Origin: Octadecabacter arcticus 238
GTDB lineage: Bacteria; Pseudomonadota; Alphaproteobacteria; Rhodobacterales; Rhodobacteraceae
Length of the DNA stretch: 64,000 bases
Assembly (NCBI RefSeq): GCF_000155735.2
Contig: NC_020908.1
Coordinates: forward strand, 811,001-875,000
Reading direction: 5' to 3'
The notes under the pieces: model-generated
Told to the model about the DNA's origin: nothing
What the model saw: the letters and a program-made list of their open reading frames with translations, nothing else
Database searches by the model: none
Shown here: one piece after another, positions 40,755-56,694 of the stretch
Numbering within the stretch: the stretch's first letter is position 1
How the letters are laid out: every line of letters begins with the position of its first letter
Program-made: the position numbers and the translations under genes

Positions 40755-41572
40755 GGCACTGTCAGAGCAAAATCGGTTGAGGCGGGCAGGGTGAGAAATT
40801 AGCATTACGGGATGACAAAACGCAGCCCTTTTCGCTACTTCAAGACGAGCCCCGAGATTATCCGTCTGGCCGTCATGATGTATGTTTGGTTTCTGCTTTC
40901 GCTTCGCAATGTTGAGGATCTTTTGCACGAACGTGGCATCGACATTAGCTATGACACGGTTCGATTTTGGTGGAACAGATTTGGCCCACTGTTTGCCGCT
41001 GAAATCCGCAAGAAAAGGGTCAGCCAGATGCGCGCATATTCAAATTGGCAGTGGCACTTGGACGAGGTGTTTGTGAAGATTAACGACGAGACGCACTATC
41101 TTTGGTGGGCTGTGGATCAAGAAGGGGAAGTCTTGGAAAGCTTTGTCACAAAGCGCTGTGATCGCAAGGCAGCCTTTAAGTTCCTGAGGAAAACCATGAA
41201 ACGCCATGGTCGCGCACATATCTTCGTCACCGACAAGCTACGTTCCTGCGGTGCGGGGATGAAGGTGATCGGCAATGTGGACAAACAGGAAACCGGCCGC
41301 TTGCTCAACAATTGAGCCGAGAATTCACACCAGCCCTTTAGACGAAGAGAGCGGGCCATGCTTCGATTTAGGCGGATGCGAACTTTACAGAAATTCGTCG
41401 CCGTCCATGCTTCTGTTCACAACCATTTCAACCAAGAGCGCCATCTCTACAACCGATCAAGTTCCAAACTCAACCGCGCCGCCGCTATTACCGAGTGGCG
41501 CGGTCTTGGTGTAGCCTAACGGATTGAGGTTGCTGAAAAACAGAGACTGGTTAGCTTTTGTCTGACAGCACC
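40755..41572 (+). mobile_element. IS6-family insertion sequence (818 bp), nonsense-mutated
   Basis: The ends GGCACTGTCAGAG and, inverted, GGTGCTGTCAGAC bracket an 818-bp element of normal IS6 size. The flanking eight bases differ (CGCGCCGT and TATAAGCG), so no target duplication remains. A second copy of the left-end motif, GGCACTGTCAGA, sits 64 bp upstream at 40691. This is the best preserved of six IS6-type sequences in the window. Confidence 0.88.
40812..41519 (+). pseudogene. IS6-family transposase with one in-frame stop
   Basis: The frame is 235 codons long with one internal stop. It contains the HTH-type start (RSPFRYFKTSPEIIRLAVMM), DISYDTVRFWWNRFGP, the first catalytic Asp in WHLDEVFVKI, the WAVDQEGEVLE second Asp, and KRCDRKAAFKFL. 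TGA at 41313-41315 replaces the family Arg codon (CGA) after LLNN. The frame then continues to the normal end EWRGLGVA. A single C-to-T change explains it, so loss is recent. Confidence 0.9.
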
Positions 41573-41833: not shown

Positions 41834-42532
41834 ATGACCAAAAACATCGATTCCAACAAACCACAGACTAGACCCCGACGCCCAGGGCGTCCGGCGGGCG
41901 ACAAAGACCTGCGCGTCGATATTCTCGATAGTGCCGAACAGGTTTTTTCCGAACACGGGTATAATGGCAGCCGCATGCGTGACATTGCGAGCAGGTGTAA
42001 TGTCAATCAAGCTTTGATCAACTATTACTTTCAATCCAAACAGCACTTGTTCGATCAAGTGTTTTTGCGTCGGGGGAAACACATCGGGAGGCGTCGCGAG
42101 GAACTCCTTGACGCCTTGATCGCGGACCCGACCGCCCCTTCAGTCGAGGCACTTGTGCGTGCATATCTCACACCGCAATGGGATATGAAATACAGCGGTG
42201 AAGCCGGTGCTGCCTTCGTCAAATTGCAAGCCAGACTTCATGCTGAGCCTGAAGACCACGCGTTGCGGCTGCGCCGGGAAGTCTATGACAGGTCTGCCAA
42301 ACGATATATTGTTGCACTTTGTGAGGCGTTGCCTCATGTTTCCCAACGCACGGTCGGATTGCGGATGGCATTTTTGATCGGCGCCTATCTGTTCATGCTG
42401 AACGACGTGGACCGTCTGAACGACCTGACTGACAATCAACTTGGCAAGGTCAACAAGCTCGAAATGCTGAACAATCTAGTGATATTTCTAAGCTCGGGAA
42501 TGACCGCGCCAGACCACACACCAATCCCATGA
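41834..42532 (+). CDS. TetR-family transcriptional regulator
   Basis: The 232-residue protein has an N-terminal TetR HTH (AEQVFSEHGYNGSRMRDIA then NVNQALINYYFQSKQHLFDQV) and an alpha-helical ligand domain. Its gene is followed after 94 bp by the maleate isomerase gene on the same strand, so it probably controls the lower pyridine pathway. An inverted repeat lies in that gap. It is one of two candidate regulators of the catabolic cluster; the other is the MarR gene at 54.9 kb. Confidence 0.9.
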   Translation: MTKNIDSNKPQTRPRRPGRPAGDKDLRVDILDSAEQVFSEHGYNGSRMRDIASRCNVNQALINYYFQSKQHLFDQVFLRRGKHIGRRREELLDALIADPTAPSVEALVRAYLTPQWDMKYSGEAGAAFVKLQARLHAEPEDHALRLRREVYDRSAKRYIVALCEALPHVSQRTVGLRMAFLIGAYLFMLNDVDRLNDLTDNQLGKVNKLEMLNNLVIFLSSGMTAPDHTPIP

Positions 42533-42582: not shown

Positions 42583-42605
42583 AAGTTTGAATTATGTATA
42601 AACTT
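42583..42605. promoter_or_regulatory. Inverted repeat upstream of maleate isomerase, candidate TetR operator
   Basis: AAGTTT at 42583-42588 and AAACTT at 42600-42605 form a perfect 6-bp inverted repeat with an 11-base AT-rich spacer. It lies 21 bp before the maleate isomerase start and just downstream of the TetR gene, a usual place for an operator. It does not match the GGAAGTATACTTCC motif found elsewhere in the cluster. Confidence 0.4.
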
Positions 42606-42626
42606 AGTTCCAAATGGAGAATCGTT

Positions 42627-43376
42627 ATGAAAAGCTTTCGCGTTGGTCAGATCGTCCCTAGTTCCAATGTGACGATGGAGACCGAAATTCCCGCACTTTT
42701 AAGCGCCCGTGGACAAGTTCACCCCGAAACGTTTACGTTTCATTCCAGCCGGATGCGAATGAAAAAGGTGACCGCCGAAGAACTCAAGGCGATGGACGGC
42801 GACAGCGACCGCTGCGCGATGGAGCTGAGCGATGCACGCGTCGACGTGTTGGGCTATGCTTGTTTGGTTGCGATCATGTCGATGGGCCACGGATACCACC
42901 GTGAATCTGCGAAACGTTTAGGTCAGGTGACCAAAGACAATGATGCCGAGGCGCCGGTTATTACGTCTGCGGGCGCACTTGTGGACGGCTTGCATGCAAT
43001 GGGGGCCAAGAAGGTGGTGGTTGTTGCTCCTTACATGAAGCCATTGGCCGAAATGGTCGTTGAGTACATCCGCGCCGAAGGCATAGAGGTTACAACGTGG
43101 AGGGCGCTCGAAATCAGTGACAACCTTGCTGTTGCTGCGCATGACCCTATGAACCTGCCCGGAATTGTCGCTGAAATGGATACGTCGGATGTCGATGCTG
43201 TCGTGTTGTCGGCGTGTGTGCAGATGCCGTCGCTGCGTGCGGTTCCGATGGCCGAGGCGGTCACTGGTAAACCCGTCGTGACGGCGGCGATCGCGACCAC
43301 ATGGGCGATGCTGAAAGCGCTGGATCTTGATACTTTGGTGCCCGGTGGCGGCGCACTTCTGTCAGGCAAATATTGA
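42627..43376 (+). CDS. nicE: Maleate cis-trans isomerase
   Basis: This 249-residue Asp/Glu-racemase-superfamily enzyme isomerises maleate to fumarate, the last step of the 2,5-dihydroxypyridine route. The two catalytic cysteines are visible in VLGYACLVAIMSMG and VVLSACVQMPSLRAV, and the start has the family QIVPSSNVTMETEIP. GGAGA seven bases before 42627 selects this start over an in-frame ATG at 42594. It heads an operon with the deformylase 11 bp later. In picolinate clusters the equivalent is picG. Confidence 0.92.
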   Translation: MKSFRVGQIVPSSNVTMETEIPALLSARGQVHPETFTFHSSRMRMKKVTAEELKAMDGDSDRCAMELSDARVDVLGYACLVAIMSMGHGYHRESAKRLGQVTKDNDAEAPVITSAGALVDGLHAMGAKKVVVVAPYMKPLAEMVVEYIRAEGIEVTTWRALEISDNLAVAAHDPMNLPGIVAEMDTSDVDAVVLSACVQMPSLRAVPMAEAVTGKPVVTAAIATTWAMLKALDLDTLVPGGGALLSGKY

Positions 43377-43387
43377 AGGATCGACAG

Positions 43388-44176
43388 ATGGCACGCGGTT
43401 ACAATCTTCATGCAAACGGCATCCGCCAGCACCTGCTGCACTACGCAGGTGACGGTCCGCAGATGCTGCTTATTCCCGGCATTACATCGCCTGCGATCAC
43501 ATGGGGGTTTATCGCTGAACGGCTGGCAGAAAAATTCGACGTTCACGTGCTTGACGTGCGGGGCCGCGGCCTAAGCGAGGCTGGCGACCTTGACTATTCG
43601 CTCGATGCGATGGCCAAAGACGCGCTTGCGGTCATTGATGGCGCAGGTCTGGATAAGCCGATCATCCTCGGTCACTCGATGGGGGCACGCAACGCCATCC
43701 GAGCCGCACGCATGAACGGCGATGCAATGTCGGGTCTTATTCTGGTGGACCCACCAGTCAGCGGGCCGGGGCGTCGCGAATATCCATCCCAATGGGCGTG
43801 GTACGAGGAGTCGATCATTGCAGCGACCAAAGGGTGCTCGGGTGACGATATGCGGGCGTTCTGCCCGACATGGACCGACGATCAGGTCGCGCTGCGGGCG
43901 GAATGGCTGCACACCTGCCAGCTTGGCGCTATCCGCACGACCTATGACGGGTTTCACACAGACGATATTCATGCCGACCTGCCGCACATCAAACTGCCGA
44001 TGCGCCTGCTAAAGGCGGGTGATGCGCCCGTGATCGGCGAAGACGACATCACCGAGATCAAAACACTGGCGCCGGATATCGATGTAAAAATCGTGCAGGG
44101 TGCGGGGCATATGATCCCTTGGGACAACCTTGACGGGTTTTTGGACGCCGTCATGGATTTCAACGCAAGCGCGTAA
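43388..44176 (+). CDS. nicD: N-formylmaleamate deformylase (alpha/beta hydrolase)
   Basis: The 262-residue alpha/beta hydrolase removes formate from N-formylmaleamate to give maleamate. It has the nucleophile elbow GHSMGA near residue 97, an oxyanion region LLIPGITSPA near 25, and the catalytic His in GAGHMIPWD near residue 245. Similarity to NicD, and its place between the maleate isomerase and the 2,5-dihydroxypyridine dioxygenase, support the assignment. The ATG at 43388 follows AAGGA; the earlier TTG at 43373 is less likely. Confidence 0.92.
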   Translation: MARGYNLHANGIRQHLLHYAGDGPQMLLIPGITSPAITWGFIAERLAEKFDVHVLDVRGRGLSEAGDLDYSLDAMAKDALAVIDGAGLDKPIILGHSMGARNAIRAARMNGDAMSGLILVDPPVSGPGRREYPSQWAWYEESIIAATKGCSGDDMRAFCPTWTDDQVALRAEWLHTCQLGAIRTTYDGFHTDDIHADLPHIKLPMRLLKAGDAPVIGEDDITEIKTLAPDIDVKIVQGAGHMIPWDNLDGFLDAVMDFNASA

Positions 44177-44194
44177 AAGAAAGGAACGTACGAC

Positions 44195-45226
44195 ATGGAC
44201 CAAGAGAGTTTCACACAGATTTGTTTGCATCAATTGAAGATGTCCGGCGTACACGAAGGTGAAAAGCTAATCGTGCTGACCCAGGGCAACGAACGTCTGG
44301 ATTACGCGGACGCGTTCATGGCGGCGGGTGCGCGACTGGGGGCATCAATGTACCACATGCGTCTGCCCGCGCCGTCTGCGATGGGCGGCTGGAATGTCGG
44401 CGTGACCGGGCTTGCGGCGATGCCGGACGCGGTCGACGCGCTCAAGGCGTGCAATATGCTGATCGACTGCGTGTTCCTGTTGTTTTCACCGGAACAATTC
44501 GCCATTCAGGATGCCGGAACCCGTATCCTGACGGCCGTAGAACCCCCGGAGCTGCTGGCGCGCATGCTGCCGTCCAAGGAGCTGCGCGAAAAGGTCGAAA
44601 TCGGCGCGGAGTATCTGGCGAAAGCCAAGGTCATGCGTATCACGTCTCCCCATGGAACTGACGTGACCTATAAACTGAACACCTATCCGACGGTCGCGGA
44701 ATACGCCTGCACGGACGAACCGGGCCGCTGGGACCATTGGCCGTCCGGTTTTGTGTTTACGGGCGGGGACGACGAAGGCGTCGACGGGCAGATTGTCGTC
44801 GCGCCGGGTGATGTGCTGTTGCCGCAAAACATGTATGTTCGCGATCCGATTACCTATACGATCGAAAAGGGTTTTATCAGCGATATGCGAGGTGGGCTCG
44901 ATTGTGCGTTGGTCAAATCCTATATGGACGGGTTCAACGACGAACGTGGCAAAGGCATGAGCCACGTGGGCTGGGGCATGAACCCAGATGCCAAATGGCA
45001 TCGCATGACGCCGGGCGAATTTCCTGGTGGCATGGGTATGGAACCCCGCAGTTTTTATGGCAACGTGATGTTTTCGACCGGTCCGAATAACGAGCTGGGC
45101 GGTGCCAACGACACGGCCTGTCATCTTGATATTCCGATGCGCAATTGTTCGTTGTTCCTTGATGACGAACCGATCGTCATCGACGGCGATCTGGTCGTGA
45201 AGGAAATGCAGATGGAACGACGCTAG
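44195..45226 (+). CDS. nicX: 2,5-dihydroxypyridine 5,6-dioxygenase
   Basis: The 343-residue enzyme opens the 2,5-dihydroxypyridine ring to N-formylmaleamate using an Fe(II) site. It is the NicX type, with an M29-peptidase-like fold rather than a classical extradiol one. Visible family segments are HGTDVTYKLN, PGRWDHWPSG, a HVGWGMNPDAKWH stretch (metal-ligand region) and GGANDTACHLDIPM near the C-terminus. AAAGGA precedes the start. Together with the deformylase, amidase and isomerase it forms the complete lower pathway. Confidence 0.95.
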   Translation: MDQESFTQICLHQLKMSGVHEGEKLIVLTQGNERLDYADAFMAAGARLGASMYHMRLPAPSAMGGWNVGVTGLAAMPDAVDALKACNMLIDCVFLLFSPEQFAIQDAGTRILTAVEPPELLARMLPSKELREKVEIGAEYLAKAKVMRITSPHGTDVTYKLNTYPTVAEYACTDEPGRWDHWPSGFVFTGGDDEGVDGQIVVAPGDVLLPQNMYVRDPITYTIEKGFISDMRGGLDCALVKSYMDGFNDERGKGMSHVGWGMNPDAKWHRMTPGEFPGGMGMEPRSFYGNVMFSTGPNNELGGANDTACHLDIPMRNCSLFLDDEPIVIDGDLVVKEMQMERR

Positions 45227-45252
45227 GCCATAACAACAAGGGATCCGTCGGC

Positions 45253-45873
45253 ATGAGTCAGGAAAAAGTCTATGAAAACGCAGGCTTTGGGGTGCGCGTT
45301 CTACGCGGCCCCAAGCCTGCATTGATCGTGATCGATTTCAGTTACGGGTTTACCGACACCCGCTATCCCACCGCGTCTGATGCGGGAAAACAGATCGACG
45401 TCACTAATCGCCTGATTGCCGCGGCGCGCGCGCAGTTAGTTCCCGTGATCTTTACTGTGATCGCCTTCAACGACGCCGAAATCGGCACCCTTGTCTGGCT
45501 GCGCAAAGCGACTGGCATGAAAGCGCTGGTCGAGGGATCGCGCCTTGTGGAAATCGACGACAGACTGGATCGTCTGCCCGGTGACGCTGTCATTTTCAAA
45601 AAAGGCGCGTCTGCGTTTTTTGGCACCAATCTTGCTGCGCATTTGTCGGGCGGCGGAATTGATACCGCGATCCTGACCGGTGCGACGACATCGGGGTGTG
45701 TCCGGGCGTCGGCGGTGGATGCGGTTCAAAGCGGGTTCAACGTTCTTGTTGTCGCGGACGCCTGCGCCGACCGCGCGGCACCGCCCCACGACGCGGCCTT
45801 GTATGACATCGACCAGAAATATGGCGACGTCATCACCACGGCGGACACTTTGTCCTATCTTGACGATTTGTAA
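45253..45873 (+). CDS. nicF: Maleamate amidohydrolase (isochorismatase family)
   Basis: The 206-residue cysteine hydrolase converts maleamate to maleate and ammonia. The catalytic triad of the family is present: Asp in VIDFSYG, Lys in VIFKKGASAFFGTNL, and Cys in GATTSGCVRASAVDA. AAGGG lies nine bases before the start. It closes the lower-pathway operon; the next gene begins after an operator-like palindrome. Confidence 0.94.
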   Translation: MSQEKVYENAGFGVRVLRGPKPALIVIDFSYGFTDTRYPTASDAGKQIDVTNRLIAAARAQLVPVIFTVIAFNDAEIGTLVWLRKATGMKALVEGSRLVEIDDRLDRLPGDAVIFKKGASAFFGTNLAAHLSGGGIDTAILTGATTSGCVRASAVDAVQSGFNVLVVADACADRAAPPHDAALYDIDQKYGDVITTADTLSYLDDL

Positions 45874-45957
45874 CCCAAAGCGCGGCTGATTTCCGGCAAT
45901 CATTTGCAACGCAAAGCGGTTGATCAAAACACGTGGCAGTTGCCTCACACCAAAAAG

Positions 45958-45971
45958 GGAAGTATACTTCC
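45958..45971. promoter_or_regulatory. Perfect palindrome GGAAGTATACTTCC, candidate MarR operator 1
   Basis: A perfect 14-bp palindrome lies 24 bp before the decarboxylase start, between it and its GGGAG ribosome-binding site. Near copies occur before the molybdenum hydroxylase operon and the ABC transporter. The position overlaps the expected promoter or transcript start, consistent with repression by the cluster's MarR protein. Confidence 0.65.
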
Positions 45972-45995
45972 TAAATTATAGGACGGGAGATTCCA

Positions 45996-46976
45996 ATGAC
46001 ACCCAAGATCACATTCGAAGAGCATTTCATGGCTCCGGGGTTCGAAAAGCATTCTGAAGCTTTTCTGAAACTGATCCCGCGTGATCAGGCTGAAATCCTG
46101 ACACGACGACTTGGTGATTTTGACGGAGAACGCATCGAGACGATGGATCGAGGGGGCATCACCCGGTCGATCATTTCTCTAACCGGGCCGGGTACACAGG
46201 GCGAGGCTGTGGAAAAGGCAGTCAGTGCGGCACAAGGCGCTAATGATTTTCTGGCAGAGAAAATTTCTAAAAAACCTGATCGCCTTGGCGGTCTTGCGAC
46301 ATTGCCGATGCATGATCCCGATGCCGCCGCGCGCGAATTGAACCGCGCGGTGAATGATCTAGGCCTGCAAGGCTGTCTGGTTAACACGCACACCCACGGC
46401 GCGTATTACGAAGGTACTGATTACGACCCGTTCTGGGCCGAGGTCGAAAAGCTGGGCGTGCCATTCTACCTGCACCCGTCAAACGCCTATGTCACGCCGC
46501 ATGTTCTTGGCGGGATGCCGGTGTTGCAGGGCGCAACATGGGGGTGGGGTGTCGAAACCGGTTCGCACGCCTTGCGTATCTTGTTCGGTGGCGTTTTTGA
46601 CCGTTTTCCCGACGTCAAACTTGTCCTTGGCCACATGGGGGAAGCGCTGCCGTTTTTGCGCTGGCGTTACGACAGCCGCTTCGGGGCCTATCCGATGGGC
46701 GTGTCGCTGGATCGCGCCCCTTCGGCCTATTTCGGGTCCAACATTCTGATCACGACATCCGGTGTGTGTTCGCATCCGTCCCTGATCGGGGCGATCGGTG
46801 AAATGGGTGCGGACGCGGTGATGTTTTCCGTCGACTACCCCTATGAAGACACCGATCTTGCGGTGGAATTTATTGAAACTGCGCCGCTGGAAGATGCGAC
46901 GCGGGTGAAAATCTGCCACGATAACGCAGCCCGCCTTTTCGGGATGCCGACGTTGGCCGCGAAAGAAGGGGCGTAA
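45996..46976 (+). CDS. Amidohydrolase-family decarboxylase (PicC-like, 3,6-dihydroxypicolinate)
   Basis: The 326-residue TIM-barrel enzyme belongs to the ACMSD/gamma-resorcylate group of non-oxidative decarboxylases. The metal-site residues appear in EEHF at the N-terminus, FYLHPSNAY near residue 158, VLGHMGEALPF near 210, and SVDYPYEDTD near 280. Its place between the lower-pathway genes and a Rieske oxygenase indicates that it removes CO2 from a dihydroxypicolinate to yield 2,5-dihydroxypyridine, as reported for PicC of picolinate degraders. Substrate specificity is inferred, not seen. Confidence 0.82.
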   Translation: MTPKITFEEHFMAPGFEKHSEAFLKLIPRDQAEILTRRLGDFDGERIETMDRGGITRSIISLTGPGTQGEAVEKAVSAAQGANDFLAEKISKKPDRLGGLATLPMHDPDAAARELNRAVNDLGLQGCLVNTHTHGAYYEGTDYDPFWAEVEKLGVPFYLHPSNAYVTPHVLGGMPVLQGATWGWGVETGSHALRILFGGVFDRFPDVKLVLGHMGEALPFLRWRYDSRFGAYPMGVSLDRAPSAYFGSNILITTSGVCSHPSLIGAIGEMGADAVMFSVDYPYEDTDLAVEFIETAPLEDATRVKICHDNAARLFGMPTLAAKEGA

Positions 46977-46977
46977 C

Positions 46978-49782
46978 ATGGACTGGTTTAAAACACTTGA
47001 AACTGCGAGTGTTCTGGAACAGGGCGCGGTCGCCACAGAAGTTGACGGATTGCGAATTGCGCTGTGGGCGATTGAAGGCGACATTTTTGCAACCGGCAAC
47101 ATCTGCACCCATGCGTTTGCCTATCTGACAGACGGTCACGTTGAAAACGGCTGTATCGAATGCCCGCTGCATCAGGGATTGTTCGATATCCGGTCCGGCA
47201 AAGCGCTGAGCGCTCCTGTCACCAAAGACATCGCCACCTATGCCGTGAAACAGGAAGACGGATTCGTCTGGGTCGATGTCAACACCGCTAGGCAGCGGCC
47301 GGATGACGCGGTGAAGCCGACCAGTGTGATCGGAACAGATGTTCGCACCTTGGTGGTGATTGGGGCAGGGCAGGCTGGTGCCGAAACGGCGATTTCCGTG
47401 CGCAAGCATGGTTTTGGCGGGCGCATCGTGATTATCGGTGCCGAAACGCACATGCCCTACGAACGCCCGCCGCTGTCCAAGGATTTGTTGACTGGTGCCA
47501 CGGGGATCGAAGATGCCTACGTCTTTGCGCCCGGTCAGGCAGAGGATTTACAGGTCGAACTGATGCTTGGTGTCAGCGTCTCTGCGATCCGGACGAATGA
47601 TACGACAGTTGACCTGTCTGATGGACAAAGTGTGTCTTACGATATTCTAGTCCTTGCGACCGGCGCGCGCGCGCGTGAATTGACAGTCAGCGGGTCCGAC
47701 ACCACAAAGATACATTATCTGCGTTGTCTGGCCGACGCCGAACACCTTGGAGCGGCGTTAAAAACTGCCAAAAGTGTTGCGATTATTGGTGGCGGTTTCA
47801 TCGGGCTTGAACTCGCATCTGCTGCACGAAAGCTGGGAGCAAACGTCACTGTGATTGAATCACAACCGCGCCTGATGACACGCCTGTTGCCTGCAGAACC
47901 CGCCGATTATTTGGCCGGGATCGCCCGCGAACATGGTGTGTCCATCGAACTGGACGCGCGCATCACCCATGTCAGCGACAAAGGTGTCGGGCTCGGCGAT
48001 GGCTGCGTGATCGACGCCGACGTGATCATTGCAGGAATTGGCGCAATTCCGAATGATGACATCGCATCTGCAGTTGGCATTCGAACCGATGACCAAGGCG
48101 GAATTCTGGTCGATCAGGTGAACCGCACAAACTTGCCCGGCATCTATGCCGTGGGCGATGTCGCAGTGCGTAAGGAGCGGCCAAATGGCCCGTCCCAACG
48201 GATGGAAAGCTGGCAGAACGCGCGGTTAAGCGCGGAACGTGCGGCCCGCCATATCACCAAACACGGACCCGCCGTAGAGGATGGCCCCTGGTTCTGGTCC
48301 GATCTGTTCGGGGCCACGATCCAGATTTTCGGTAAGACCGACGCCGACATGCCGGTGGTCCGCCGCGACGGTGAAACCGCACCGGTCTTTTTGGGGCAGG
48401 ACGCCATTGGTCGTGTCAAATGCGTCATAGATTTTGGCGATGCATCTGCACTGCGTGCGGCAAAGGCACTAATGGCCAATGGACAGGCTCTGGCGACCGA
48501 TGGGTCGGATCTGGGCGACAACGAGGAGGATGACATGAAACAACAACCATTCGAAAGCCGGTTCATCTGGCCAGCCGAGGGTCTGATCCGCGTGCCCGAC
48601 TGGGTCTATACCAATCAAGAAGTCTATGAACGCGAAGTCGAACGCATTTTTCATGGATCGACGTGGAATTACGTCGCACTTGACTGCGAAGTGCCCAACA
48701 CGGGCGATTTTGTGCGCTCCTACGTTGGTCCCACACCCGTCGTGGTGTCGCGCGACGAAGACGGCGAAGTCCACGTTTTTGAGAACCGCTGTTCACACCG
48801 CGCGGCTGAATTTTGTCGCGAATTGCGCGGTAACAACACGGAATTTGTCTGCCCCTACCACGAATGGAGTTATGATCTGAAAGGCAATCTTGCCGGTGTT
48901 CCGTTTCGCCGTGGTGCCAACGGCGAAGGCGGCATGCCCGCGGATTTCGACGCTGCAGATCACGGGTTGCGCAAGTTGAATGTCGCACAGCGCGGAGGTG
49001 TTATTTTCGCATCCTACGCCGACGATATGGAGAGCTTTGAGGACTACATGGGCGAAGCCATGCTGGAAGACTACGACGCAGTGTTTTCGGGTCGCAAGCT
49101 GAAGCTGTTCGGTCATTACCGCCACACCATCATGGGCAACTGGAAACTGTACCCCGAAAACCTGAAAGATCCGTATCACGCAACATTGCTGCATACGTTT
49201 TTGGTGACTTTCGGATTGTTGGTGGCGGGCAACAAATCAGCGATGATTTGCGACCCCAAGGGGCGTCATTCGACAATGGCGTCCGCCAAAAGCGATAACG
49301 CGGTGTCCGATGAAAACAAAAAGGAAATGCGTGGCTACCGCGACGGGATGACGTTGGCGGATCCCCGTCTGATGGATTATGTGGCCGAATTCGACAGCCC
49401 ATGGTCGGTGACGATGCAGGTCGTCTGGCCCAACCTAATCGTGCAGCGCGAAATGAACACCCTTGGCGTGCGCCAATTGGTGCCCAGTGGCCCGAACGAA
49501 TTCACGATGATCTGGACGATGTTCGGCTACGAAGACGACGACGAAGAAATGACGCGCCACCGGTTGCGTCAGGGCAATCTGATGGGGCCTGCCGGATTCC
49601 TAGGGCTGGAAGACAACGAAGCGATCAAATTCGTGCAGGACGGAATGTTAAATTCATCCAAACCGGCAAATCACATGGTGCAGCTTGATCCCGACGTACC
49701 GGCCGGCACATCCGAAACCCTGATATCAGAGGCCGCGATCCGCGCGTTGTATCAGCACTGGCGTGAGGAGATGGGCGTATGA
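46978..49782 (+). CDS. Fused Rieske ferredoxin / FAD reductase / Rieske oxygenase alpha subunit
   Basis: One open frame of 934 residues encodes three modules of a ring-hydroxylating oxygenase. Residues about 1-105 are a Rieske ferredoxin (CTHAFAY and CPLHQG). Residues about 120-510 are an FAD/NADH reductase (VVIGAGQAGAETA, IIGGGFIGLELA, GIYAVGDVA). From residue 520 there is a complete oxygenase alpha subunit with a second Rieske centre (CSHRAAEFC and CPYHEWSYD) and the mononuclear iron site NLKDPYHATLLH. AGGAGG just before residue 520 (ATG at 48535) would also allow a separate 415-residue alpha subunit. It probably hydroxylates 6-hydroxypicolinate. The components are usually separate genes, so the fusion is unusual. 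Confidence 0.88.
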   Translation: MDWFKTLETASVLEQGAVATEVDGLRIALWAIEGDIFATGNICTHAFAYLTDGHVENGCIECPLHQGLFDIRSGKALSAPVTKDIATYAVKQEDGFVWVDVNTARQRPDDAVKPTSVIGTDVRTLVVIGAGQAGAETAISVRKHGFGGRIVIIGAETHMPYERPPLSKDLLTGATGIEDAYVFAPGQAEDLQVELMLGVSVSAIRTNDTTVDLSDGQSVSYDILVLATGARARELTVSGSDTTKIHYLRCLADAEHLGAALKTAKSVAIIGGGFIGLELASAARKLGANVTVIESQPRLMTRLLPAEPADYLAGIAREHGVSIELDARITHVSDKGVGLGDGCVIDADVIIAGIGAIPNDDIASAVGIRTDDQGGILVDQVNRTNLPGIYAVGDVAVRKERPNGPSQRMESWQNARLSAERAARHITKHGPAVEDGPWFWSDLFGATIQIFGKTDADMPVVRRDGETAPVFLGQDAIGRVKCVIDFGDASALRAAKALMANGQALATDGSDLGDNEEDDMKQQPFESRFIWPAEGLIRVPDWVYTNQEVYEREVERIFHGSTWNYVALDCEVPNTGDFVRSYVGPTPVVVSRDEDGEVHVFENRCSHRAAEFCRELRGNNTEFVCPYHEWSYDLKGNLAGVPFRRGANGEGGMPADFDAADHGLRKLNVAQRGGVIFASYADDMESFEDYMGEAMLEDYDAVFSGRKLKLFGHYRHTIMGNWKLYPENLKDPYHATLLHTFLVTFGLLVAGNKSAMICDPKGRHSTMASAKSDNAVSDENKKEMRGYRDGMTLADPRLMDYVAEFDSPWSVTMQVVWPNLIVQREMNTLGVRQLVPSGPNEFTMIWTMFGYEDDDEEMTRHRLRQGNLMGPAGFLGLEDNEAIKFVQDGMLNSSKPANHMVQLDPDVPAGTSETLISEAAIRALYQHWREEMGV
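48523..48537 (+). promoter_or_regulatory. Internal ribosome-binding site and ATG within the oxygenase fusion
   Basis: GAGGAGGA (48523-48530) is followed by TGAC and the in-frame ATG at 48535, exactly where the reductase module ends and the oxygenase alpha subunit begins. It is one of the strongest Shine-Dalgarno sequences in the window. It suggests the modules were two genes, and that free alpha subunit may still be made. Confidence 0.75.
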
Positions 49783-50336
49783 GCCGCGAAACGAAACCGT
49801 CCCTCGATGTCGGATTGAAAGATGTCACAGGCGCGTTGGCGCGGGCGACAAACCCCGCGTCGCACGATGCCAAATACGCTGTCGAAGCGTTTAACACGAT
49901 CTATTGTGCGGTGCTGGATGACGGTGATCTGGAAGACTGGCCCGAATTTTTTACGGAAGACGGTTTTTACAACATAGTCAGCCGTGAAAACTATGATCAC
50001 GGGCTTCCGGTCGGACTTGTCTATTGCGAAGGCAAGAACATGATGAAGGACCGTGCGATGGCCATCGCCAAGACGTCGATGTTCGGCCCGCGCTATTTGC
50101 GCCATTTTATGACCAACACGCGGATCGTCGACATCGACGATGCGGGCACCATCAAGGCCGAAACCAATTTCATTCTGGTCGAAGTGCTTGCCGAATGGCC
50201 GGAAGGCCGTCTGCATATGGCGGGCCGGATGCAGGATATCTTTGAAAAACAGGTCAATAACAGCCTGTTGTTAAAGTCACGCATCGCGATTTATGACACG
50301 TTGCTGGTACATAATGCGCTGGTGCTGCCGGTCTGA
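49779..50336 (+). CDS. Ring-hydroxylating oxygenase beta subunit
   Basis: The 185-residue small subunit has the SnoaL/NTF2-like fold of oxygenase beta subunits, with FNTIYCAVLDDGDLEDWPEFF near residue 40, YNIVSRENYDHG, RYLRHFMTNTRIVD and MAGRMQDIFEKQ near the C-terminus. It overlaps the alpha-subunit stop by four bases and would form the alpha-beta terminal oxygenase. Small subunits of the salicylate 5-hydroxylase type are closest by eye. A bidirectional terminator follows. Confidence 0.9.
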   Translation: MSRETKPSLDVGLKDVTGALARATNPASHDAKYAVEAFNTIYCAVLDDGDLEDWPEFFTEDGFYNIVSRENYDHGLPVGLVYCEGKNMMKDRAMAIAKTSMFGPRYLRHFMTNTRIVDIDDAGTIKAETNFILVEVLAEWPEGRLHMAGRMQDIFEKQVNNSLLLKSRIAIYDTLLVHNALVLPV

Positions 50337-50355
50337 TCTAACAAAATCAACGACG

Positions 50356-50392
50356 AAAAAGGGCGCGACCGAATGATCGGTCGCGCCCTTTT
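50356..50392. terminator. Bidirectional intrinsic terminator between convergent operons
   Basis: A perfect 12-bp stem GGGCGCGACCGA / TCGGTCGCGCCC with an ATGA loop is flanked by AAAAA on the left and TTTT on the right. It lies between the oxygenase beta gene and the convergent molybdenum hydroxylase operon, so it can end both transcripts. Confidence 0.92.
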
Positions 50393-50416
50393 ATGTTTGG
50401 TAACGGCGGTGGCGTG

Positions 50417-51592
50417 TCAGGTCCGGCGGAACAAGGCCCGCAGTTTTCCACCAATAACCGCGCGGATCATCGCAAACGCGCTTATCCCTTTGCTTTCGCG
50501 GACTTCGCCACCAGACAAGACGGCGTCGCAGTTGGCGACGAATTCGGCGAGAATATAATCGACGAAACCGTTGACAAGTTCCGGCCGGTTGAACTGGCCG
50601 AGCATCCCCTGGATTCTGAACCGGAACCCCACATCGACAAGCGACGCATCGGGGTCGCCCTGCGCCAGGCGGACTGTATAGCTCAACTCACCCTCGACCG
50701 CGGACTGCCCGCCCCGGTCTTTGCCACGCCCCGCCACGGTCCCGACACGGCTGCTGTCGTCGGTTCTATAGGTGCCTTCGCCCTCAAATTTGGCGGTGAT
50801 CGGACCGAACGCGACACCGATGTGGCCGGTGAACGTACTTGCGTCGTGATCGGTCAGTTTCGCGCCGGGCAAACATTCGGCCACTGCATCCAGATCAGAA
50901 AAATGCGCCCAGACCGCGTCTGCCGAATGGTTCAGCGCCACTTCGCGTTTGACGACGGACCAGCCGTCTTCGACGGTCATGGTGCCGGATGATACGGCGG
51001 GGGCCGGCGGTCGCTCGGCGATGTCGGCGTCAAAGGGTGCAAACCCAGTGGTCGCTTCGCGTGCGACGCGCGGCGCGCCGGTCGATGGCAGGCCAAGACC
51101 GCGGCGTTCGTCGATCACCTGCGCGATGGATTCGACAATTCCGACGTAGCCGGTACAGCGGCACAGGTTTCCCGACAATTCGTTACGGATACGGACTTCG
51201 TCTGCTGTGTCCAGCCGTTCGACCAGATCGCGTGCGGTCGCCAGCACCCCGGGTGTGCAAAATCCGCATTGCAGGGCGTGATTGCGGTGAAACGCGGCCT
51301 TGAGTCGGTCCATCAAATCGTCGTCTTTGAAACCTTCCAGGGTTTCGACGGTCGCGCCCTCACAAGATGCGGCAAACGTCAGGCAGGCGCGCGTAGGGCG
51401 TCCGTCGACCATGACGGTACATGCGCCGCAGACACCCTGTTCACATCCCAGATGGGTTGCCGTCAGATCAAGATGATCGCGCAGGATTTCGGCCAGTGTC
51501 GTGCGCGGTGGCACAGTGACCGTTTCGGGCCTGTCGTTTATTGTCAGGGATATCGATTGGTTGGCAGCGGCGGGCGTTACGATGACCTTCAT
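50417..51592 (-). CDS. Molybdenum hydroxylase [2Fe-2S] subunit fused to a CoxG-like domain
   Basis: Residues about 1-165 are the small subunit of a xanthine-dehydrogenase-type hydroxylase with two [2Fe-2S] clusters: CEQGVCGACTV with a later C (RACLTF), and CGFCTPG with LCRCTGY. After a Pro/Ala-rich linker, residues about 215-390 form a CoxG/SRPBCC-type domain (ADAVWAHFSDLDAVAECLPGA). CoxG is usually a separate protein linked to membrane anchoring or maturation of such enzymes, so this fusion is less common. It is the last gene of the minus-strand operon and overlaps the FAD subunit by four bases. The proposed step is oxidation of picolinate to 6-hydroxypicolinate. Confidence 0.88.
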   Translation of the reverse strand: MKVIVTPAAANQSISLTINDRPETVTVPPRTTLAEILRDHLDLTATHLGCEQGVCGACTVMVDGRPTRACLTFAASCEGATVETLEGFKDDDLMDRLKAAFHRNHALQCGFCTPGVLATARDLVERLDTADEVRIRNELSGNLCRCTGYVGIVESIAQVIDERRGLGLPSTGAPRVAREATTGFAPFDADIAERPPAPAVSSGTMTVEDGWSVVKREVALNHSADAVWAHFSDLDAVAECLPGAKLTDHDASTFTGHIGVAFGPITAKFEGEGTYRTDDSSRVGTVAGRGKDRGGQSAVEGELSYTVRLAQGDPDASLVDVGFRFRIQGMLGQFNRPELVNGFVDYILAEFVANCDAVLSGGEVRESKGISAFAMIRAVIGGKLRALFRRT

Positions 51593-52413
51593 GACGGGAT
51601 TACCTTTGCAATGGCGCGCGACAGGGCAGTTTTCAAAAGTTGTCGTTTCACCCGTGATGCACCCGGCAGGTGTGCCGCCAGTGCCCCGTCGATTTCATCC
51701 AGCGACGGGGCGGTGGCCGTGCGCGCCATTTCGCGCGCCATGTCATCCAGCAGCAAGGGCGCGTCTTCGGTGGCACCGACGACGATGCGGGCATATTTCA
51801 GGTCCGGTTGGATGACGACAGCGCCGATGGCGTCGGCGAATTCACCAACCTTGCGGCAGATTTTTTCGTAGCCCCACAAGGCCTTTCCCATGGCGGTGGG
51901 CAGTTCCACGGCCACGATAATGTCGCCCTGTTGCAACGCGGTGCGATATGCCCCGCGCATGAATCCCGCCATCGGTTCGCGCCGCGATTTGCCGTGCGCG
52001 TTGCGGATCACCAGTTGCGCGCCAAGCGCCGTCATGGCGCTGACCCAGTCGGCTGCCGGATCGGCGTGTGCAAGCGACCCCCCGATGGTGCCTTTGTTGC
52101 GCACGGCGCGATAGGCGATGCTTCTGGCGACATGGCGCAGCATCGTTGGCAAATCGACATCGTCGATCCCGTCTTCGATCTGCGCATGGGTGACAGCCGC
52201 ACCGATCGATAAAACGTCGCCTTTGATGTGGACGGTCTGCAATTCGTCCAGCTGGTCGATGCTGACGATTGTCGTCGGCCGCACCAGCCGCAGATTCAAC
52301 ATCGGGCCGATCGACTGGCCCCCTGCCATGACCTTGCTGTTGTCACCGGTCAGTGCCTTGTCCGCCAGTTGCAGGGATTTCGGGATTTCGTGGGTGAATG
52401 GCACCGGTTTCAT
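51589..52413 (-). CDS. Molybdenum hydroxylase FAD-binding subunit
   Basis: The 274-residue medium subunit of the heterotrimeric hydroxylase has the FAD-binding VMAGGQSIGPMLNLRLVRP motif (residues about 30-48) and the TIGGSLAHADPAADW motif near residue 113, which hold the flavin. It passes electrons from the iron-sulfur clusters onward. It overlaps both neighbours by four bases. The length is normal and no defects are seen. Confidence 0.93.
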   Translation of the reverse strand: MKPVPFTHEIPKSLQLADKALTGDNSKVMAGGQSIGPMLNLRLVRPTTIVSIDQLDELQTVHIKGDVLSIGAAVTHAQIEDGIDDVDLPTMLRHVARSIAYRAVRNKGTIGGSLAHADPAADWVSAMTALGAQLVIRNAHGKSRREPMAGFMRGAYRTALQQGDIIVAVELPTAMGKALWGYEKICRKVGEFADAIGAVVIQPDLKYARIVVGATEDAPLLLDDMAREMARTATAPSLDEIDGALAAHLPGASRVKRQLLKTALSRAIAKVIPS

Positions 52414-54767
52414 TGTGCGGTCTCCGTGACGCTGGAATTGGCATCACGCGCGTCAAAGATCGCGGTCAGGATCCGGTGCGGCGTGGCGGGAATACTGTTG
52501 ATCTCAGCACCAAGCGGGGCCAACACGTCGTTGATCGCGTTTACCAATGCGCCGCTGGGGGCGATTGCGGCCCCTTCGCCGACGCCTTTGATGCCGTGCC
52601 GCGTATAGGGCGACGGCGATTCCGAATGACCAAGTCGAAATCGCGGCAGTTCAGCCGGACCCGGCAGAATATAATCGGCCAACGTCGATGTCAGCGGCTG
52701 TCCGGCACTGTCATAGATCACTTCTTCGAACAGTGCCGTTCCGATACCTTGTGCAGCCCCGCCGTAGGACTGGCCGTCAAGGATCAGCGGGTTCACCCGG
52801 GTTCCGCAGTCTTCAAAGATCACATAATCTAGGATGTCGACCTTGCCGGTTTCAATGTCGACTTCGACGACGGCGGCATGGGTGGCATAGGTGAAAACGC
52901 CGGTGTCGATTGTCGGCTTGTAGCCTTCGGTGACTTCCATGCCAGTGGTTTCGATGTCGTCAGGCAACAGGTCGGGGCGCAGATACCACGCTTGCGCGAT
53001 CTGTTTTAGACTGACGGACGCCGCACCTTTGAAGACGGCACCATCTTTCAGTTCGGTTTCGTCGGGTTTGCATTGCAACAGATGGGCACCCAGAATACGA
53101 ATGCGGCGCGCCAGTTCCTCGGATGCTTTGGACACGGCCCCCCCCGCCATCACCATACCGCGCGAAGCGTATGCGCCGGTTGAATAGGGGGTCATGCCGG
53201 TGTCGCCCATCGTGACCTTGATGCGCGAAAGATCCAGTGACAGCCAATCGCTCGCGACTTGGGCGATTGTCGTTTCAAGACCTTGACCGGTGGTCTGGTT
53301 GCCTGATTTGACCTCTACGGATCCGGTTGGTGCCAGTTTGACCATCGCCTGTTCGTACCCCGGCACCAGTGCAAGGCCCCAGGACGCGAACACCTTGGTT
53401 CCATGCGCGGATTGTTCGGTAAACGACGAAAACCCGATCCCCAGATGCCGCCCTTCCTTGGCGGCGGCGGCCTTGCGTTTCGCAAACGATTTCGCGTCGA
53501 TCATTTCCGCGGCCTGCCGCGCGGCTTCGGGATAATCGCCGGTATCGTAGAATTTTCCGGTCACGTTGGTGTAGGGCATTTTGGCCCCCTGCACGAGGTT
53601 CAGGCGGCGCACGTCAAGCGGGTCGCGACCAACGGCGCGTGCAATCGCATCAATCGTCAGTTCCATCGCAAAACAGACCCCTGGACGCGCGACACCGCGG
53701 TACGGGGTAAAGCCCGGTTTGTTGGTCGCGACCGAATAGGTGCGGCACGCATAGGCCCCCAGATCATATGGGCCCGGCAGATTGCCGCCCGCCTGCGCGG
53801 CTTCAAGGCAGGCGGTGAACGGCCAAACGGAATAGGCGCCGACATCGACCCAGATATCGGCATCAAGCCCAAGAAGGCGGCCGGTATCGTCGGCGTATGC
53901 GGTAATTTTGTATTTGTGTTCGCGGGTGTTGGCACCGGCGGTCAGATGTTCGCGCCGGTCTTCGGTCCAGCGGATCGGACGGCCAAGATGTGTCGCGGCC
54001 CATCCCACAGTCAGTTCTTCGGGTTGCAGGACGCATTTGTAACCGAACCCCCCGCCGACGTCGGGCGCAATGACCCGCACTTCACCCTGATCAAGACCAA
54101 GGCATTCGGCGACGCCGGTGCGGATCAGATGCGGCACCTGTGTCGACGTATACATCACAAGCTGTTCTGCCTTGCCGTCCCAATAGGCCAGCGCGCCCTT
54201 TCCCTCCATCGGGGTCATGCACTGGCGTGCTGTCGAATACTCGCGCTCTATGATGACGGTGGCATTTTTCCGGGCTTCGGTCAGATCATTGTCGAATTGC
54301 GTGGTCAGAAACAGGTTGTTGTCCCATCCGGCGTGCAGTTTTTCAGCGCCTGGGGCAAGAGCGGTTTCAACTCTGACATGTACATCCAGCGGGTCTAGAT
54401 CGACGATGACAGCTTCGGCGATGTCTTCTGCTTCGGCGCGGGTGGGGGCAACGCACATGGCAATACATTCACCGACGAAACGGACTTTGTCCTTGGCCAA
54501 CGGCCAATGATCGGACTGGTTGTAAGTCGCAAGAGTCGACTGCGCGACGATGGGTCCAAGCCCGACCATGTCGTCTATGGTGAAAATCTGGTCCTCGAAC
54601 CCGTTCGGCTTGGTTATCGATTTAATTTTTGCGTGGGCCAGCGGGCTGCGGACATATGCGGCCTCCCACAGGTGCGGCATCTTAATGTCGCCCACAAACT
54701 GCGCCGTTCCGTTGAGGTGGCGGGCGTCTTCCTTGCGGGGGATTCGTGCGCCGATACCTGTCGTCAT
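52410..54767 (-). CDS. Molybdenum hydroxylase catalytic (molybdopterin) subunit
   Basis: The 785-residue large subunit binds the molybdenum cofactor and hydroxylates an aromatic ring carbon next to nitrogen using water. Visible motifs are DVGGGFGYKCVLQPEE, YRGVARPGVCFAMELTID and the C-terminal KGVGEGAAIAPSGALVNA with the catalytic Glu. The CO-dehydrogenase active-loop signature AYRCSFR is absent, so it is not a CO dehydrogenase. In this cluster the likely substrate is picolinate (PicA-type). An operator-like palindrome lies 37-50 bp before the start, and the MarR gene is divergent. No dedicated cofactor-insertion protein is encoded nearby. Confidence 0.9.
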   Translation of the reverse strand: MTTGIGARIPRKEDARHLNGTAQFVGDIKMPHLWEAAYVRSPLAHAKIKSITKPNGFEDQIFTIDDMVGLGPIVAQSTLATYNQSDHWPLAKDKVRFVGECIAMCVAPTRAEAEDIAEAVIVDLDPLDVHVRVETALAPGAEKLHAGWDNNLFLTTQFDNDLTEARKNATVIIEREYSTARQCMTPMEGKGALAYWDGKAEQLVMYTSTQVPHLIRTGVAECLGLDQGEVRVIAPDVGGGFGYKCVLQPEELTVGWAATHLGRPIRWTEDRREHLTAGANTREHKYKITAYADDTGRLLGLDADIWVDVGAYSVWPFTACLEAAQAGGNLPGPYDLGAYACRTYSVATNKPGFTPYRGVARPGVCFAMELTIDAIARAVGRDPLDVRRLNLVQGAKMPYTNVTGKFYDTGDYPEAARQAAEMIDAKSFAKRKAAAAKEGRHLGIGFSSFTEQSAHGTKVFASWGLALVPGYEQAMVKLAPTGSVEVKSGNQTTGQGLETTIAQVASDWLSLDLSRIKVTMGDTGMTPYSTGAYASRGMVMAGGAVSKASEELARRIRILGAHLLQCKPDETELKDGAVFKGAASVSLKQIAQAWYLRPDLLPDDIETTGMEVTEGYKPTIDTGVFTYATHAAVVEVDIETGKVDILDYVIFEDCGTRVNPLILDGQSYGGAAQGIGTALFEEVIYDSAGQPLTSTLADYILPGPAELPRFRLGHSESPSPYTRHGIKGVGEGAAIAPSGALVNAINDVLAPLGAEINSIPATPHRILTAIFDARDANSSVTETAQ

Positions 54768-54885: not shown

Positions 54886-55404
54886 ATGGACCCAAATAAG
54901 CAATCTAATACCGATCGCGTCTTTGTCAGTGATCGCCTGAACGGGCCGGTGGGACGGTATACACAACTGTGGAATAGACCCGGTTATCTGATCCGCCGCC
55001 TGCATCAGATACACGTCGGTTTATTTGCAGAAGCCTGCGGAGCAGATGGCGTAACGGCTGTTCAGTTTGCGATCTTGTCTGTTTTGCTTAAAAGTGACGG
55101 GATTGATCAGCTGACACTGTCCAAGGCTGTCGGTATCGACCGGACCAGTGGCGCGGACGTTATAAAACGTCTGGTGCGCAATGAGCTGGTGACACGGGAA
55201 CCCTCAAAAAACGATGCCCGCGCAAAAGCTGTCCGGATCACGACAGCAGGACGCAGGCTCATCGGTGAAATGCAGCCCGCCATGGAAGCAGCACAAGACA
55301 AGCTGATGGATCCACTGAACGCTGAAGATCAGGCGGAGTTCATGCAATTGCTGAGTCGTCTGATCAATGCTAATAACGAATCCAGCCGCGCTCCGATGGC
55401 GTAA
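54886..55404 (+). CDS. MarR-family transcriptional regulator
   Basis: The 172-residue protein has the MarR winged-helix core: VTAVQFAILSVLLKSDGIDQ, LSKAVGIDRTSGADVIKRL (recognition helix) and the wing VTREPSKNDARAKAVRIT. MarR repressors typically sense aromatic acids, and a MarR protein (PicR) is reported to repress picolinate genes in Alcaligenes. AAGGA precedes the start. Divergence from the hydroxylase operon with a shared palindrome supports local control of the catabolic cluster. Confidence 0.92.
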   Translation: MDPNKQSNTDRVFVSDRLNGPVGRYTQLWNRPGYLIRRLHQIHVGLFAEACGADGVTAVQFAILSVLLKSDGIDQLTLSKAVGIDRTSGADVIKRLVRNELVTREPSKNDARAKAVRITTAGRRLIGEMQPAMEAAQDKLMDPLNAEDQAEFMQLLSRLINANNESSRAPMA

Positions 55405-55593: not shown

Positions 55594-56694
55594 ATGATCC
55601 GTCCCGGTTTTCTTTCTCCCACGGAGCGCCTTGAGCTTGAGGTCTGTGTTCGCAGTCAACGCGAAGATCATGGGATTGCACGGCGTGCAAATGCGCTTCT
55701 TTTGCTGGATGATGGGAAGTCCTGTCAGGTAATCGCGGAATTTCTATATTTGGACGACGACACCGTTCGCGGCTGGCACAAAACCTATCGTGAAAACGGC
55801 TGGGATGCGCTTGCAGTTGATGGCTGGAAAGGCGGTCACTCTCGTATGGCCGCTGACCAAGAGGCGGCATTATGCGACTGGCTGGACGGCCGCTTCTGCC
55901 ACTCGTCGGTTGAGATAAGAGCCCACGTTTCAACAAAATTTGGCCTGCGCTACTCGCACTCTGGCTGCATCAAGCTTCTTGCCCGGTTGGGGTTTGAATA
56001 TCGCAAGCCCAAGGCCCTGCCGCGCGTTGTCTCTGCTGAAAAGCAGGCCGCATTTATCGCATTGTACGAACGTCTGATGGGCGATCTGGGCGCAGATGAA
56101 GCCGTCTATTTCGCTGATGCTGTACATCCTGAATATCAGACAAAACCCAGCCATGGCTGGGTAAAGGCAGGATCAAACCCGGCGATCAAAACTACAGCAG
56201 GGCGTGGCCGCGTAAACATCCATGGCGCGCTGAACCTCGAAACCTTCGACACGCCCTTTGTCGAGCCAACCACCGTGGACGGCGTTAGTGCCGCGCAACT
56301 TCTGGCCAAGATTGAGGCTCGCAATCCCGACAAGCGAATGATCCACGTTATCTGGGACAATGCCGCCTATCACAAAGGGCCAGATGTCAGGGCCTTTCTC
56401 GCAAGGCCAGACTGCCGCATACATCTTATCCAGTTGCCGCCATATTGCCCGCATCTCACCCCCCTTCTCGGCAGATTGCTGCGCAATCGCCTGTCAGCAA
56501 TGATCGAGCGATTATGGGCGGTCATGCATCAACATGTGACGCACAATCAATATCACCCGACACAAAAACAGTTCGCGAATGCGATCCTGAAATTCTTTCG
56601 CGAAACCATCCAAAATGAGTGGAAAACCTTCCGAAGCCAAGTCTCAGACAATTTCCGCGTCATAACTCATGAAAAATTTCGGGTTTTGCCGTAG
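55594..56694 (+). CDS. IS630-family transposase carrying an in-frame palindromic insertion
   Basis: The 366-codon frame has the HTH part (ARRANALLLLDDGKSCQVIA), the first catalytic Asp in YFADAVHPEY, the second in HVIWDNAAYHKG, and the Glu in IERLWAVMHQHV. Where the family reads CPHLNPIERLW, this copy reads CPHL, then about 15 foreign residues (TPLLGRLLRNRLSAM), then IERLW. The extra 39 bases match the dispersed palindromic element (copy C). The frame survives, but the Asp-to-Glu spacing is lengthened by 13 residues, so the enzyme is probably inactive. Confidence 0.88.
   Translation: MIRPGFLSPTERLELEVCVRSQREDHGIARRANALLLLDDGKSCQVIAEFLYLDDDTVRGWHKTYRENGWDALAVDGWKGGHSRMAADQEAALCDWLDGRFCHSSVEIRAHVSTKFGLRYSHSGCIKLLARLGFEYRKPKALPRVVSAEKQAAFIALYERLMGDLGADEAVYFADAVHPEYQTKPSHGWVKAGSNPAIKTTAGRGRVNIHGALNLETFDTPFVEPTTVDGVSAAQLLAKIEARNPDKRMIHVIWDNAAYHKGPDVRAFLARPDCRIHLIQLPPYCPHLTPLLGRLLRNRLSAMIERLWAVMHQHVTHNQYHPTQKQFANAILKFFRETIQNEWKTFRSQVSDNFRVITHEKFRVLP
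56461..56502. repeat. Dispersed palindromic element, copy C (in frame in IS630)
   Basis: CCCCTTCTCGGC, a hairpin (GATTGC TGC GCAATC) and GCCTGTCAGCAATG share the framework of copies A and B. The net length added to the IS630 gene is 39 bp, a multiple of three, with no stop codon. Insertion into a protein gene without breaking the frame recalls palindromic elements described in Rickettsia. Confidence 0.7.

Follow-up and report, generated by a model that had tools for sequence, protein, structure and literature searches.

A predicted fused PicB-type Rieske oxygenase with a conserved internal start signal

Three oxygenase components in one reading frame

We analysed a 64,000-nucleotide stretch of the Octadecabacter arcticus 238 genome (contig NC_020908.1, positions 811,001 to 875,000; hereafter the window, whose own numbering is used throughout). 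A single gene at 46978..49782 on the + strand, which we read as a candidate fused PicB, joins a Rieske ferredoxin, a flavin adenine dinucleotide (FAD) reductase and a Rieske oxygenase alpha subunit. Its frame runs uninterrupted from ATG to stop and encodes 934 residues, with Pfam domains in the order Rieske_2 (residues 3-99), Pyr_redox_2 (125-416) and Reductase_C (438-507), followed in the alpha part by Rieske (562-644) and Ring_hydroxyl_A (711-932). A preliminary description of this DNA had claimed just such a ferredoxin, reductase and complete alpha subunit in one 934-residue frame, and the open frame, the Pfam domains and conservation across the family bear it out.

The ferredoxin module (residues 3-99, 46984..47274, +) matches the NCBIfam AndAb model below its cut-off and carries the ligands C43-H45 and C62-H65, which are invariant in 121 of 121 alignment rows (the window's own protein is counted twice in this alignment). 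It is followed by a glutathione reductase (GR)-type FAD/NAD(P)H ferredoxin reductase module (residues 125-507, 47350..48498, +), for which the nearest solved reductases are of the BphA4 type, for example 1D7Y. A linker at about residues 508-530 (48499..48567, +), recognizable by its alignment variability and low structural confidence, leads into the alpha part, whose nearest solved structure is salicylate 5-hydroxylase (7C8Z). Here C605, H607, C625, H628, D731, H734 and H739 are invariant in all 121 rows, and D888 is invariant in a 60-row alignment. We take C605/H607/C625/H628 to form the Rieske CxH/CxxH cluster site, and H734, H739 and probably D888 to be the iron ligands. The oxygenase beta subunit (49779..50336, +; Pfam Ring_hydroxyl_B, with an NCBIfam AndAd match below cut-off) begins within the end of the fused gene, the two overlapping by ATGA. 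The preliminary description named neither this subunit, which completes the enzyme, nor the pic pathway considered below.

Judged from sequence, the locus encodes every component of a type IV Rieske oxygenase, three of them in one chain: an alpha subunit with Rieske and 2-His-1-carboxylate sites, a Rieske-type [2Fe-2S] ferredoxin and a GR-type FAD reductase. Type IV components are separate polypeptides, whereas here they share one 934-residue frame. This makes an ordinary type IV system less likely and does not affect the view that the enzyme works like one. Because beta remains a separate chain, "self-sufficient" is used here to mean all redox modules plus the catalytic subunit. The genome that contains the window (5.48 Mb, 3 contigs) holds a single full-length copy of the fused gene. 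A structure predicted from the 60-row alignment had a mean predicted local distance difference test score (pLDDT) of 79 and a predicted template modelling score (pTM) of 0.48. The pLDDT fell below 50 at both linkers (residues 107-117 and 507-521), but residues 45-50 and several stretches of alpha score as low. The prediction is thus consistent with flexible linkers and says little beyond that.

The start signal between reductase and alpha

The linker between reductase and alpha contains a putative internal Shine-Dalgarno sequence, GAGGAGGA (48523..48530, +), four bases upstream of an in-frame ATG (48535..48537, +) that encodes Met520. The preliminary description had pointed to this pair, and we find it in place and conserved in relatives. 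Initiation here would yield a predicted free alpha subunit of 415 residues (48535..49782, +) that retains the alpha Pfam domains and the residues invariant in the 60-sequence alignment. With a Shine-Dalgarno score of -11.1, the internal site is the best among the pic gene starts scored, the next being those of the PicA large subunit (-8.7) and beta (-8.6). A sigma-70 consensus scan of 46800-50400 found no internal promoter for alpha and beta on the + strand, which is weak evidence.

To set this site against its relatives, 49 distinct fused open reading frames (ORFs) were examined as DNA, with loci lacking a same-frame ferredoxin or reductase match (such as L006) excluded. Thinning at 90% identity left 41 genes and at 80% left 26. 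The stretch scored ran from 12 codons upstream of the linker through the conserved WP of alpha, and the start was taken as the ATG or GTG with the best Shine-Dalgarno sequence within it. In all 41 genes an ATG (35) or GTG (6) lies 8-33 codons before the WP with a Shine-Dalgarno score of -5.5 or better, and 29 of the 41 reach -8. Among the remaining in-frame ATGs of these ORFs (884 in number), -5.5 is attained by 18.2% and -8 by 1.7%. Equal-length windows elsewhere in the same ORF were as strong in 8% of cases on average (5% or fewer in 25 of 41 genes), as were codon-shuffled linkers in 9% (5% or fewer in 26 of 41).

The best control is the linker between ferredoxin and reductase in the same genes, since a signal that was merely a relic of once separate genes would be expected at both joints. 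At equal length, that linker reached -5.5 in 13 of 41 genes and -8 in 4 of 41. The difference between the two linkers at -8 is significant in both sets (Fisher p = 2e-8 for 41 genes; 16 versus 2 of 26, p = 8e-5).

Annotated proteins point to the same place. The Met520 column holds M in 93, V in 15 and L in 5 of 121 rows, and a Met lies no more than 30 residues before the WP in 105 of 117 fused proteins. Among 19 listed proteins of an alpha search that fall outside the ferredoxin-alpha class described below, 12 begin 12-23 residues before the WP, at the matching position, although some of these stand-alone starts are perhaps gene-caller choices or contig-end cuts. On a Paracoccus seriniphilus plasmid, the PLSDB annotation places the start of a separate alpha coding sequence exactly at this ATG (399970), with the upstream frame open.

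These comparisons bear on the possibility that the fusion is functional but that only the 934-residue protein is made, the internal Shine-Dalgarno sequence and ATG acting in pausing or folding, or surviving from a once separate alpha gene. Shine-Dalgarno-like stretches inside genes could slow ribosomes between domains. Moreover, the separate alpha gene of split relatives begins slightly upstream of the same WP motif, and the start is probably ancestral. A leftover should nevertheless decay in this linker, the most variable of three parts compared (mean pairwise identity 0.30, versus 0.49 for reductase and 0.78 for alpha, in 26 genes), given that the reductase tree of the 41 fused genes spans 19 substitutions per site. 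The ferredoxin-reductase junction, which presumably also once had a start, shows little signal, and a pause site requires no start codon at the right spacing, which every one of the 41 genes has. We therefore regard a mere pause site or relic as unlikely.

At the codon level, the putative start signal is preserved as nucleotides more than as residues. Across the 26 genes, positions -12 to -9 before the internal start are G in 18, A in 23, G in 25 and G in 18, while the residues encoded there vary. The linkers end, for example, in EEDDM, EVGDM, EISAM, KGDIM, RRGTM or QEETM, and GAGG at -12 to -9 is mostly kept. Where codon -4 encodes Glu, it is GAG in 18 of 18 cases (26-gene set) and 27 of 27 (41-gene set), against gene-wide GAG usage of 55% and 59%. 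Codons -5 and -3 together use GAG in 12 of 12 and 21 of 22 cases, which brings Glu at -5 to -3 in the 41-gene set to 48 GAG of 49; on either side, at -13 to -6 and -2 to -1, Glu codons are split evenly or favour GAA. The preference persisted when the first linker ATG, present in 23 of 26 and 37 of 41 genes, was picked blind to the Shine-Dalgarno sequence (GAG at -4 in 14 of 14 and 21 of 21). The mRNA from -25 to +20 is also more weakly folded than its synonymous recodings (41 genes, Wilcoxon p = 3e-6; 26 genes, p = 1.5e-3), and within its own ORF the median share of positions that fold as weakly is only 3.3%. In 30 of 41 genes and in 21 of 26, fewer than half of the recodings had an equally strong Shine-Dalgarno sequence.

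An acidic linker ending in Met could instead be kept for reasons of the protein, such as docking or a hinge, its resemblance to a ribosome-binding site being an accident of Glu codons. E at -4 occurs in 18 of 26 genes, D or E is common nearby, and about a third of synonymous recodings are as strong on average. Yet the residues vary while GAGG persists, the GAG preference is confined to codons -5 to -3, the start is a GTG-encoded Val in 6 of 41 genes, and the mRNA is more open than its recodings, all of which make this explanation very unlikely. The putative internal start signal is thus conserved family-wide at the nucleotide level. This conservation supports the dual products suggested in the preliminary description, while free alpha and the long protein remain predictions.

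Relatives and age of the fusion

A search with the whole chain returned 992 proteins with E <= 0.001 among 7999 candidates scored. Among the matches listed, 119 relatives of 933-972 residues share the identical domain set at 52-87% identity, and named carriers include strains of Loktanella, Paracoccus, Mangrovicoccus and Pacificispira. Full-length matches occurred in 5 of 295 genomes of the organism's own family, 6 of 385 of its class and 3 of 398 of its phylum; in 5 of 14 and 4 of 4 genomes of two further families; and in 16 of 391 genomes of another family, with 18 of 265 in one genus of that family. Three further sets of 3, 39 and 4 genomes yielded no full-length fused gene. These genome sets overlap, count the organism's own genome where it was drawn, and were searched at E thresholds from 1e-100 to 1e-170.

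A split form also exists. Separate ferredoxin, reductase, alpha and beta genes stand in the same order beside pic genes in Polaromonas, two Achromobacter, two Caballeronia and one Variovorax genome, and in the alphaproteobacterial genome G380 the same four separate genes have only PicA and MarR homologues nearby. Across these seven genomes, alpha identity is 61-67%. In other relatives (for example L084, L086-L089 and L128; alpha 60-65% identical), alpha and beta are present, and the stretch read contained no match to ferredoxin or reductase. A set of Achromobacter and Bordetella loci with the order beta, alpha, ferredoxin, reductase (L012-L033) was set aside, as alpha is mostly about 45% identical and no pic set appeared in the scan; some of these became outgroup.

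The preliminary description had left room for a recent stop-codon loss, and the occurrence of split versions with unchanged gene order would suit a stop-codon loss, sequencing error or assembly artefact that joined two genes in one strain. The 119 listed relatives with the same domain make-up exclude an error or loss confined to one strain, and 49 distinct ORFs are fused at the DNA level. With fused homologues down to 52% identity and trees that favour one old fusion, this account is refuted, and we give it practically no chance.

In a tree of 72 alpha sequences, one clade of 47 rows (41 fused, 4 ferredoxin-alpha and 2 alpha-only) has a Shimodaira-Hasegawa-like approximate likelihood ratio test (SH-aLRT) support of 97, with 7 split picB-like alphas outside it. 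The character "fused" needs 3 changes on this tree; we interpret them as a single gain followed by losses. Among 55 reductases, the tree places all 41 fused sequences on one side of a branch with SH-aLRT 96. Both trees are quick searches with SH-aLRT support only, their outgroups are not clean, and one fused row (L133) is long-branched. Most likely, the fusion arose once and is old, dating to an ancestor common to its mostly alphaproteobacterial carriers.

Nested in the fused clade is what appears from its sequences to be a second natural architecture, in which ferredoxin is fused straight to alpha and the reductase has been lost. It accounts by length and motif for 101 of 120 proteins listed from the alpha search (6025 matches in total), mostly from jgi, ena or lgn sources, and no reductase match was found within the stretches read at the ferredoxin-alpha loci L173-L176 and L179. 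We dropped the notion that forms without the reductase have always lost the internal start as well: it fits four of five loci with DNA, yet 60 of the 101 proteins keep a Met 8-30 residues before the WP. Separately, at the Mangrovicoccus ximenensis locus L006 the ferredoxin-reductase part is interrupted or misassembled, leaving 125 open codons before an intact alpha and Met start region.

The pic neighbourhood, proposed working and known systems

The fused gene lies within a set of genes that resembles the pic cluster of picolinate breakdown. According to the Bordetella PicC paper (PMC10142695), PicA and PicB act via 6-hydroxypicolinate and 3,6-dihydroxypicolinate, PicC decarboxylates to 2,5-dihydroxypyridine, and PicD-PicG complete the route to fumarate. 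Immediately upstream of the fused gene is a PicC-like decarboxylase of the amidohydrolase_2 family (45996..46976, +), with gamma-resorcylate decarboxylase 2DVT as nearest solved structure; it is 60-61% identical to homologues in three genomes where split picB-like genes adjoin. Further upstream, all on the + strand, are a PicF-like maleamate amidohydrolase of the isochorismatase family (45253..45873, from Pfam and synteny), a PicD-like 2,5-dihydroxypyridine 5,6-dioxygenase (44195..45226), which matches the structure of the same enzyme (7CN3) at E = 2e-90, a PicE-like alpha/beta hydrolase, or N-formylmaleamate deformylase (43373..44176, from Pfam; better Shine-Dalgarno at ATG 43388), and a PicG-like maleate isomerase (42594..43376; Pfam Amdase, better Shine-Dalgarno at ATG 42627), whose Paracoccus homologue is annotated as maleate isomerase. 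Beyond the beta gene, Pfam and synteny identify a PicA-like molybdenum hydroxylase on the - strand (50417..54767), with a [2Fe-2S] subunit bearing a CoxG tail, an FAD subunit and a molybdopterin subunit. A MarR-family regulator (54886..55404, +; Pfam MarR) is PicR-like by position and family.

Several other features accompany the cluster. The C-terminal CoxG domain of the PicA-like iron-sulfur subunit (50417-51592) is another fusion. A TetR-type regulator (41834-42532) lies upstream of picG, as it does at L001 and L063, with the MarR regulator at the opposite end. The whole lies between a DDE_Tnp_IS240 transposase fragment (partial profile match, 40812-41315) and a DDE_3 transposase (55594-56694), and transposases on both flanks suggest a mobile island. 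Outside it, the adjacent, overlapping frames 39511-40074 and 40050-40628 each encode a DUF5681 protein.

PicA, PicC, PicD, PicE, PicF and PicG family members thus stand together with picB at 42594-54767, with similar sets at related loci, and the fused gene occupies the place expected of picB. Because its neighbours match the pic cluster, it is most likely, on synteny, a fused PicB, the type IV Rieske oxygenase of picolinate breakdown. Nicotinate and 3-hydroxypyridine pathways were considered and dropped in favour of pic, given a PicC-type decarboxylase and a Rieske oxygenase among PicA and PicD-G homologues. The enzyme could still act on another substrate, for instance an anthranilate- or salicylate-like acid, with its place in the cluster incidental: for each part, AndA models rank with the best named NCBIfam matches, and the best solved relative of alpha is a salicylate 5-hydroxylase. 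Yet all four AndA equivalog models score under their cut-offs (AndAc 412.7 of 750, AndAa 278.5 of 650, AndAb 107.1 of 150 and AndAd 116.7 of 230 bits), for which reason we rejected anthranilate dioxygenase as a name, and PicC, PicD, PicE, PicF, PicG and PicA homologues adjoin fused and split forms at many loci. We consider another substrate improbable.

We propose that the fused enzyme 3-hydroxylates 6-hydroxypicolinate, with electrons from NADH passing through FAD, the tethered ferredoxin and the Rieske cluster of alpha to the iron, all inside one alpha-beta hexamer. Rieske ferredoxins are thought to dock at the alpha-beta boundary on the hexamer stem (PMC9361823), so an arm on the alpha N-terminus could reach its own site or a neighbour's through a flexible linker. 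A hexamer with three arms, each about 56 kDa judged by length, may have more of them than it needs or accommodate them poorly. With its ribosome-binding site and start codon, the linker would allow initiation also at Met520, giving free alpha from the same mRNA; long and short chains would then join beta in mixed hexamers whose redox arms, perhaps one or two, are outnumbered by the active sites. Redox partners would then again be sub-stoichiometric, as in ordinary multi-component systems.

We infer the substrate, both protein products, the mixed hexamers and the purpose of the second start. The reading as a whole, a fused PicB of single origin whose internal start also yields free alpha for mixed hexamers with fewer arms, we hold to be probable, and several points weigh against it. 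The structure prediction is of modest confidence (pTM 0.48), and the substrate is deduced from the neighbouring genes. Twelve of 117 fused proteins have no Met within 30 residues of the WP. On average, 0.32 (41 genes) and 0.36 (26 genes) of synonymous recodings fold as weakly. The Shine-Dalgarno advantage over recodings is likewise modest (mean fraction as strong 0.33 and 0.30), so linker residues account for part of the signal. The start was chosen by its Shine-Dalgarno sequence, a bias that the first-linker-ATG choice removes for ATG only, and the counts ignore shared descent beyond the thinning by identity. Among ferredoxin-alpha fusions, four of five loci with DNA have a weak linker start or none, and 41 of 101 proteins have no Met 8-30 residues before the WP.

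More broadly, we lean towards the view that these proteins form a natural family of self-contained Rieske oxygenases, where the number of redox arms per active site is set by a programmed internal start and of which the ferredoxin-alpha proteins would be a related branch that dropped the reductase. Rieske oxygenases are sought as catalysts but rely on electron suppliers that are separate and leaky. No self-sufficient Rieske oxygenase has been identified so far according to a 2025 review (PMC12445004), which urges making or finding one. A word search of the 2008 classification (PMC2358900) returned neither "fused" nor "fusion", and among the papers listed by our literature searches no natural Rieske oxygenase fusion of this kind surfaced, though the original pic cluster paper may mention a fused picB. 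The parts belong to known families, and databases already hold the fused proteins under names such as "FAD-dependent oxidoreductase". The family offers natural linkers to copy, with split relatives as controls. The conserved internal start leads to a prediction for design: full fusion may be excessive, and nature dilutes redox arms with free alpha.

Among known systems, the closest by gene neighbourhood and inferred step is PicB of the pic cluster, the 6-hydroxypicolinate monooxygenase of Alcaligenes faecalis JQ135 and Bordetella bronchiseptica RB50. That enzyme is encoded as picB1B2B3B4 (PMC10142695), whereas here a single chain with an internal start unites three parts. Type IV Rieske oxygenases of the Kweon scheme (oxygenase, [2Fe-2S] ferredoxin and GR-type reductase), such as AndA, have the same redox classes and an alpha-beta oxygenase, but their components are separate, while those of fused PicB are covalently joined. 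Self-sufficient cytochromes P450 (CYP116B, P450BM3) carry redox partners and oxygenase in a single chain; fused PicB would share their working principle with an unrelated oxygenase. For the second start, the parallels are a phage endolysin whose internal initiation leads to a 1:5 subunit complex (PMC9430671) and Cas11b, likewise produced through internal initiation (PMC11899642). As in phage endolysins and Cas11b, fused PicB would give a long and a C-terminal short product from one frame, an arrangement demonstrated there and predicted here, in a catabolic oxygenase.

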